Source: an uncultured Desulfobulbaceae bacterium
Lineage (GTDB): Bacteria > Desulfobacterota > Desulfobulbia > Desulfobulbales > Desulfocapsaceae
Direction of reading: 5' to 3'
NCBI GenBank assembly: GCA_937132035.1
Contig: CAKZOA010000442.1
Location: 1 to 36,831 of the forward strand
Length of the DNA: 36,831 nt
Shown: positions 19,267 to 20,332 of the stretch, piece by piece
Position numbering within the stretch: the stretch's first letter is position 1
How the letters are laid out: each line of letters opens with the position of its first letter
The notes under the pieces: generated by a model
The model's input: only the letters and a program-made list of their open reading frames with translations
Databases searched by the model: none
Told to the model about the DNA's origin: nothing
Translations under genes and position numbers: made by a program

Positions 19267-19500
19267 CTACTTGGTCAGAATTACCCAGAGGGCATGAATG
19301 ATGCCCGGTATGTAGCCGAACAGTGTGAGAATGAGGTTGATCCAAAAGTGTTTACTCAGGCCGACTTCGAAAAAGACCCCCAGCGGCGGCAATATGACTG
19401 CCAGAATTATTTTGACAATGTCACTGATACCATCAAAGCCTCCGGTTTTGGGCGAGGCGGTGGCGTGCGTATTAGTGTGATTGTGATCCGATGTTTTCAT
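19267..19500 (-). CDS. Pmp3/YqaE family small membrane protein
   Basis: The 77-residue protein has a polar His/Thr-rich N-terminal extension (about 1-25) and two membrane helices. The conserved core is ILAVILPPLGVFFEVGL then FWINLILTLFGYIPGIIHALWV. This is the Pmp3/UPF0057 signature; in yeast and plants these proteins set membrane potential under salt or cold stress. The start at 19500 has GAAAGGAGG upstream. The N-terminal extension is longer than the ~52 residues usual for the family. Its stop is 21 nt before the YihY start. Confidence 0.88.
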   Translation of the reverse strand: MKTSDHNHTNTHATASPKTGGFDGISDIVKIILAVILPPLGVFFEVGLSKHFWINLILTLFGYIPGIIHALWVILTK

Positions 19501-19571: not shown

Positions 19572-19581
19572 ATTCTTTTAT
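19572..19581. repeat. Target-site duplication, left copy
   Basis: The sequence ATTCTTTTAT is repeated exactly at 19755-19764, directly flanking the palindromic element on its other side. Confidence 0.7.
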
Positions 19582-19754
19582 CTGATTACCCCTAATGCTC
19601 AGCTACTCATTAGGAGACAGGGATACTCTTTTCCCGGGACGCCATAAACCCATCCCTGGGGGCTTGACCGCAGCCGTCCAGGCTGCGGAACACCCGTGAA
19701 AAGAGCACCCCTGCCTCTTTCGAATCGGCTAAGCTGAGTTTCAGGGGTAATCAG
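19582..19754. mobile_element. 173-bp miniature inverted-repeat element (MITE-like)
   Basis: The element starts CTGATTACCCCT and ends AGGGGTAATCAG, a perfect terminal inverted repeat extended inward by CTCAGC / GCTGAG. A second nested pair of arms (CAGGG-xx-CTCTTTT-x-CCGGG-like) and a central CGCAGCC / GGCTGCG hairpin make the whole element nearly palindromic. A perfect 10-bp duplication ATTCTTTTAT flanks it. It encodes nothing and must be moved in trans. It lies between the Pmp3 and MgtC genes. Confidence 0.8.
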
Positions 19755-19764
19755 ATTCTTTTAT
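19755..19764. repeat. Target-site duplication, right copy
   Basis: Exact copy of ATTCTTTTAT, matching 19572-19581 on the left of the element. Confidence 0.7.
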
Positions 19765-19852: not shown

Positions 19853-20332
19853 TTATCGGCGATGGGCGACTTTATACTCGAGCCAAGCAGCTCCGCGGAG
19901 AATGAGAATAGAAAAGATGGTGACGCCCACTGCCAGAAGCCACTGCTCCAGGGCTGCTGCAATTCCTATGGCACAGCATATGAGAATAGAGGCAGCCGTG
20001 GTCAAGCCTTCGATACCTTCACCATCGCCGGCGCGGAAGATGGTGCCGGCACCGAGAAAACTGATACCGGTAATGATCGCTTCGACGATACGGATGGGAT
20101 CCGTACGCAGGAATTCGTTGTAATCCTGGATGGTGAAGCGGTCGAGGAGGACATCGGAGAGGCCAACGAGCATGGCGGAGGTGCCGGCGACGAACATGTG
20201 GGTACGCAGCCCCGCGGGTTTTTTTTCCAGTTCCCGGTCAAGTCCAATAATTCCGCCAAGCACCATTGCGGCACCCACCGTGCCGAGGATGGCCAGTTGC
20301 CCGCCCCAGCGGCCCAGCATTTCTTCAAACAT
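19853..20332 (-). CDS. MgtC/SapB family membrane protein
   Basis: The 159-residue protein has four to five membrane helices and the family signature GGIIGLDRELEKKPAGLRTH at 26-45, followed by GAGTIFRAG and GLTTAASILICCAIG. It ends after the hydrophobic domain and lacks the C-terminal ACT-like domain of long MgtC proteins. Short forms are common in environmental bacteria. MgtC proteins aid growth under Mg2+ limitation and modulate ATP synthase. It lies downstream of CsbD on the same strand, but a terminator-like hairpin (20374-20413) separates them. Confidence 0.87.
   Translation of the reverse strand: MFEEMLGRWGGQLAILGTVGAAMVLGGIIGLDRELEKKPAGLRTHMFVAGTSAMLVGLSDVLLDRFTIQDYNEFLRTDPIRIVEAIITGISFLGAGTIFRAGDGEGIEGLTTAASILICCAIGIAAALEQWLLAVGVTIFSILILRGAAWLEYKVAHRR

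Follow-up and report, generated by a model that had tools for sequence, protein, structure and literature searches.

The palindromic DNA at 19581–19755 of the window (the whole stretch of 36,831 nucleotides analysed here) is a genuine, gene-less palindromic MITE, and we hold with high confidence that it is a non-autonomous element of the IS1595 type, moved in trans by an IS1595-family DDE transposase and carrying a core at the tip of its hairpin. As far as sequence comparison carries the argument, the element belongs to a multi-copy family with IS-identical ends, 8-bp target-site duplications, intact autonomous relatives in sister genera and a conserved, covarying core. In the proposed mechanism, the DDE transposase of an IS1595-family IS would act in trans: it would recognise ends of the form TCTGATTACC..(N)..CTCAGC and would cut and paste the element into A+T-rich intergenic DNA, leaving 8-bp duplications; the IS would contribute the ends only, and the inside would be a long palindrome with a three-way-junction DNA core at its tip. 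The MITE itself is ordinary and of a kind already known; its partner family is identified and its duplication length is corrected here. The features in the window are listed below with their strand and basis.

19573..19580, + strand: left 8-bp target-site duplication TTCTTTTA (sequence; column test over 34 copies)
19581..19605, + strand: left terminal inverted repeat TCTGATTACCCCTAATGCTCAGCTA (end type as in IS1595-family IS copies)
19581..19755, + strand: entire 175-bp element, very probably a non-autonomous IS1595-type MITE, an end-to-end palindrome (copies, fold, column test)
19639..19692, + strand: three-way-junction core ACGCC ATAAA CCCATCCCTGGG GGCTTGA CCGCAGCC GTCCA GGCTGCGG AACA (alignment, fold, model)
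19641..19663, + strand: core hairpin P2, with an invariant TCC loop and a 5-nt bulge ATAAA (core alignment and RNAalifold)
19665..19692, + strand: core hairpin P3, with a GTCCA loop and stem bases that change in pairs between species (alignment and RNAalifold)
19731..19755, − strand: right terminal inverted repeat (25 outer bases identical to the left end of the Desulfopila IS)
19756..19763, + strand: right 8-bp target-site duplication TTCTTTTA (sequence; column test over 34 copies)

The perfect terminal inverted repeats reported in the initial annotation are present, 12 bp on each side (CTGATTACCCCT at 19582–19593 and AGGGGTAATCAG at 19743–19754), with nested palindromic arms between them and a 10-base flanking repeat, ATTCTTTTAT, at 19572–19581 and 19755–19764. 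Folded as a single strand, 19582–19754 reaches −88.3 kcal/mol, compared with −50.5 ± 3.9 for shuffled sequences (z = −9.7). The open-frame list contains no open reading frame of at least 100 aa within 19581–19755. Both flanking genes read leftward; the one at 19270–19500 encodes a 76–77-residue membrane protein, which we take to be of the Pmp3/YqaE type, and the one at 19853–20332 belongs to the MgtC family.

The duplication length was settled by comparing copies. From the window genome and related genomes, 45 end pairs were gathered, and a column-wise comparison was made of the 34 pairs in which six or more of ten flank bases agree. The eight inner duplication columns match at 85–97%. For the two outer columns the figures fall to 65% and 53%, and nearly every copy has Y (T or C) in the left one and R (A or G) in the right one; picking copies by total match lifts all columns alike and alone does not lower the outer two. 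Because the outer columns match poorly and are constrained as Y/R, the outer bases are part of the element, which therefore measures 175 bp with an 8-bp duplication, and the two extra matching bases at the window locus are chance matches to its terminal bases. The palindrome and the mobility described at the outset thus stand, with the size revised from 173 bp to include the outer Y/R bases, and the perfect 10-bp duplication gives way to one of 8 bp. That a transposase making true 10-bp duplications moves the element is extremely improbable: ten bases do match at the window locus and at several other loci, but the outer columns match poorly, and their bases are restricted because they belong to the ends; intact IS relatives have duplications of exactly 8 bp lying outside their TCTGATTAC ends, and the column test over the 34 copies tells strongly against a true duplication of this length. 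Among ten near-complete copies that a pattern caught in the window's own genome, two (L001, L004) keep 8/8 duplication bases and five keep 7/8, a mix that is expected if insertion ages differ.

The identity of the ends points to the partner. A search found the 22-bp end in 20 of 93 genomes of the same family, and several of these ends start insertion sequences with an IS1595-type transposase; autonomous IS1595-family IS of about 1,060 bp, the partner that the initial annotation had supposed to exist elsewhere, are thus present in sister genera, with ends of the element's type, as in Desulfopila. In Desulfopila sp. IMCC35006 (G090, family Desulfocapsaceae), the intact IS (L106/L336) is 1,062 bp long and its transposase matches PF12762 (DDE_Tnp_IS1595; 6.7e-33) and PF12760 (IS1595 Zn-ribbon); over its 25 terminal bases, the right end of the window element matches the left end of this IS (L336) without a difference, so that the window element shares its ends with an autonomous IS1595-family IS. 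Seven intact IS of 1,055–1,065 bp (L327, L328, L329, L331, L333, L335 and L336) each have exact 8-bp duplications, the length also found for the MITE, and have related ends of the TCTGATTAC type, one of them starting CATGATTACC. Both the 8-bp duplications and the combination of Zn-ribbon and DDE_Tnp_IS1595 are those of the IS1595 family (PMC8101967). One IS1595-type IS (L108, G013:C6) is broken by a gene resembling an IS4-like transposase.

The window's own genome (G000), a draft of 499 contigs, has 0 PF12762 matches, and among its two genus mates an IS1595 transposase is found in G001 alone, where it lacks these ends. A partner transposase in the same genome is usual and not strictly required, since relic MITE families outlive their partner, and draft assemblies often lose IS copies. 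In G004, many contigs (C10, C12, C15, C19, C24, C41) break about 72–94 bases inside an identical IS end, which indicates that high-copy IS1595 elements fragment that assembly; the same fragmentation may hide IS1595 copies in the window's genome. We infer that an IS1595 transposase moved this copy and that the source transposase has been lost from the window genome or is absent from the draft.

The element is dispersed. In the window's own genome at least 40 related places are found at E below 1e-19, a lower bound, since scoring covered 40 of the 170 first-look candidates, and CTGATTACCCC occurs there exactly 43 times, compared with 0 for the reversed control pattern. Multiple dispersed copies without genes are thus found, as for an IS1595-family MITE, and the many copies with duplications support the early proposal of a recent, non-autonomous transposition. 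The multiple copies predicted with that proposal do exist, with duplications of 8 bp rather than the 9–11 bp expected; because the element is multi-copy, it is not a single-copy sequence conserved in place. No empty site is seen at the exact locus, the neighbouring MgtC gene having no match at E ≤ 1e-20 in two same-genus genomes. An insertion whose prior state is recoverable occurs in Desulfopila sp. IMCC35006 (L176, 1–8000), where a core-bearing MITE lies inside another MITE of related end type, with the duplication ATTCCCATAT, which includes the 8 bp.

Elements with the same end type carry differing insides within the family: in G029 and G079 these are CGTCATTCCCGCG-type palindromes, in G066 and G077 others. 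MITEs with CTGATTACC-type ends (L094, L111 and L096 in G029 and G079; L091, L109 and L117 in G066) hold other palindromic cargo, including CGTCATTCCCGCG..GGCGGGAAT repeats that resemble dRS3/CGTC-type REPs, and one shell with CTGATTACC-type ends seems to pick up different hairpins. Small forms of 59–90 bp are also present; the core-less ones (L060, L089, L099) were considered as possible ancestors and rejected, L060 at least looking like a deletion between short direct repeats.

Distant relatives match the window element at its centre only. The central hairpin, at first taken simply as part of the element, is in fact a module common to gammaproteobacterial repeats. In the window this core is about 55 bp long (R1 match 19627–19713, 85.9 bits). 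Alignment of 24 cores gives 26 invariant columns, and RNAalifold, run without a supplied structure, returns a three-way junction made of closing arms P1, a hairpin P2 with a five-base bulge and a hairpin P3 with an R.A mismatch, in which 19 of 27 pairs are compensated by changes on both sides. Loops and junction are conserved while the stems change in step: 93.9% of cells pair in the first core alignment, compared with 39–47% when the partner is slid. A further 51 matches come mostly from genomes outside model-building, yet they were fitted to the model and so lean towards it; 96.3% are paired in them, compared with 34–42% when slid. Double changes number 359, against about 22 single changes. 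Even among copies of one genome (G354, G348), the arms differ and complementarity is kept.

At E ≤ 1e-4, the core model matches 70 of 369 sampled Gammaproteobacteria genomes (roughly a fifth) and 16 of 258 Desulfobulbia genomes, and many core-bearing genomes have at least 12 or at least 17 copies each. Among the matches listed in a pattern scan of named genomes are Stenotrophomonas, Erwinia, Pantoea, Mixta, Aliidiomarina, Reinekea, Neiella, Saccharospirillum, Sedimenticola, Desulfopila and Desulfocapsa. A search of phages, viral contigs, E. coli and plasmids found the core on one Marinobacter plasmid only, where BLAST matches part of it. The MITEs that contain the core have ends of four or more kinds. 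Two of these kinds come from genomes (G514, G582) sampled within Gammaproteobacteria, the class to which Stenotrophomonas belongs:

Ends TCTGATTACC: Desulfocapsaceae and family f12, 8-bp duplications
Ends GTGCCTCTATACGAAACTCAGC: Desulfocapsa and G068, 8–9 bp duplications
Ends CAGCAATTCCCA: G514 (L374–L383), Gammaproteobacteria, 9-bp duplications
Ends CAGGGCSGGA: G582 (L389–L391), Gammaproteobacteria, 8-bp duplications

A search of plasmids for IS with the ends of the G582 or G514 core-MITEs gave none that is convincing. A shared neighbour gene near the cores was sought and rejected: the clusters are scattered and small, apart from a large one made almost wholly of Stenotrophomonas frames, many of which read through the repeats themselves. 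In G371 (L311, 3468–5178), two cores in opposite orientation, the only ones found in that genome, flank a ccdAB-like toxin-antitoxin pair and an AbrB-like gene; a cassette around ccdAB was discarded as an explanation, the cores being in separate intergenic stretches with no cassette ends seen. Rfam has no family for the core at gathering score, and a search of openly licensed papers for its letters gave nothing relevant; that comparison concerned text, and a prior description is possible in the figures of PMC3733652. The core is thus apparently without a name in the openly licensed literature searched and in Rfam. In Aliidiomarina sanyensis (L136, 3347–3450), Rfam matches the Vibrio RNA AS9 (RF02820) at 55.5 bits, outside Vibrio.

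Its pairs bear on whether the core works as DNA or as RNA. Selected RNA stems normally show a G-U excess. In the cores, G-T accounts for about 1% of pairs, and A-C mismatches are at least as frequent (8 G-T vs 12 A-C and 11 vs 16 in the two core alignments), and relative to co-directional neighbour genes the Desulfobulbia copies lie on the same strand in 11 cases and against it in 9, counted from gene positions that a simple open-frame caller gives only approximately and least reliably for Stenotrophomonas. Having neither a G-T excess nor a strand preference, the core looks more like a DNA structure, or a palindrome kept perfect by repair, than like an RNA, and we infer that it works as folded DNA. 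The same two observations, together with the lack of an Rfam family, tell against a structured RNA (a regulator or a CsrA/RsmA-type binding site) borne into transcripts by the MITE, which we regard as quite improbable; nor do those two observations support a role for transcribed copies as RNA hairpins. The strong fold and extensive covariation would suit a structured RNA, as would the TCC that all 24 aligned cores share in the P2 loop and in P3, which places GGA in both hairpin loops of the reverse strand.

It is also unlikely that the core began as a REP-type unit that a Y1 (HUH) transposase (RAYT/TIRYT) mobilised, and became lodged in MITEs only secondarily. High copy numbers in intergenic DNA, paired copies of opposite orientation in Reinekea and Aliidiomarina, and the TIR families beside Y1 genes for which S. 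maltophilia is known (PMC3733652) would agree with it, but none of twelve Y1_Tnp loci in core-bearing genomes has a convincing core within 1.5 kb (best 15.8 bits), and the core-bearing Desulfopila, Reinekea, Erwinia and Mixta genomes, several of them drafts, have 0 Y1_Tnp. A Y1/RAYT partner was rejected, no such gene being flanked by the core or the ends, and the core differs from such a unit in having two hairpins on one junction rather than a single hairpin, with neither GTAG nor CGTC as a tag at its foot. At close to even chances stands hairpin-templated repair (quasipalindrome correction), which would keep the arms complementary so that only loops, bulge and junction are selected; covariation would then say little about selected function. 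This possibility concerns the core and is compatible with IS1595-mediated movement of the MITE. The arms that differ within G354 and G348 with complementarity kept, and double changes far exceeding single ones, are what such repair would give, whereas such repair leaves unexplained why loops, bulge and junction bases are alike in two phyla although the arms around them are unrelated. The likeliest reading is that the core is a DNA-level passenger module at the hairpin tip; that it represents a class of its own, so far unnamed, of modular folded-DNA elements with two TCC-loop hairpins on a three-way junction, repeatedly taken up by differently ended MITEs, we propose tentatively, at somewhat less than even odds. 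On that proposal, its uptake in Gammaproteobacteria and Desulfobulbia would probably reflect an advantage to the palindrome or its carrier, as a host protein site or by protecting the tip.

Among known systems, the IS1595 family (ISPna2/IS1595-type, relatives of eukaryotic Merlin) has ends and 8-bp duplications as in the window element and, in sister genera, a trans-acting transposase with Zn-ribbon and DDE_Tnp_IS1595 (PMC8101967); the window element differs from these IS in having no transposase gene and in sharing with them only about 25 bp of sequence per end. YPAL, ERIC, NEMIS, Nezha and MITEPye1, as described in PMC3733652 and PMC11578231, are likewise gene-less intergenic elements of 70–300 bp with inverted ends and a strong hairpin, but the ends and partner family of the window element are different, and unlike those MITEs it has at its centre a core module found again in MITEs with other terminal types and in a second phylum. 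GTAG/CGTC-tagged REPs and RAYT/TIRYT-associated repeats are also high-copy palindromic intergenic DNA, and some REP dimers lie inside longer palindromes (PMC3733652); in contrast to tagged REPs, the core consists of two hairpins on a three-way junction, without a tetranucleotide tag and with no Y1 transposase beside it. That one 55-bp fold, its loops fixed and its stems free to change, lies in differently ended transposons of two phyla is hard to explain. If the core is a selected DNA structure, it would offer a direct route to finding what recognises hairpins in bacterial chromosomes and would bear on why miniature transposons are so often long palindromes.
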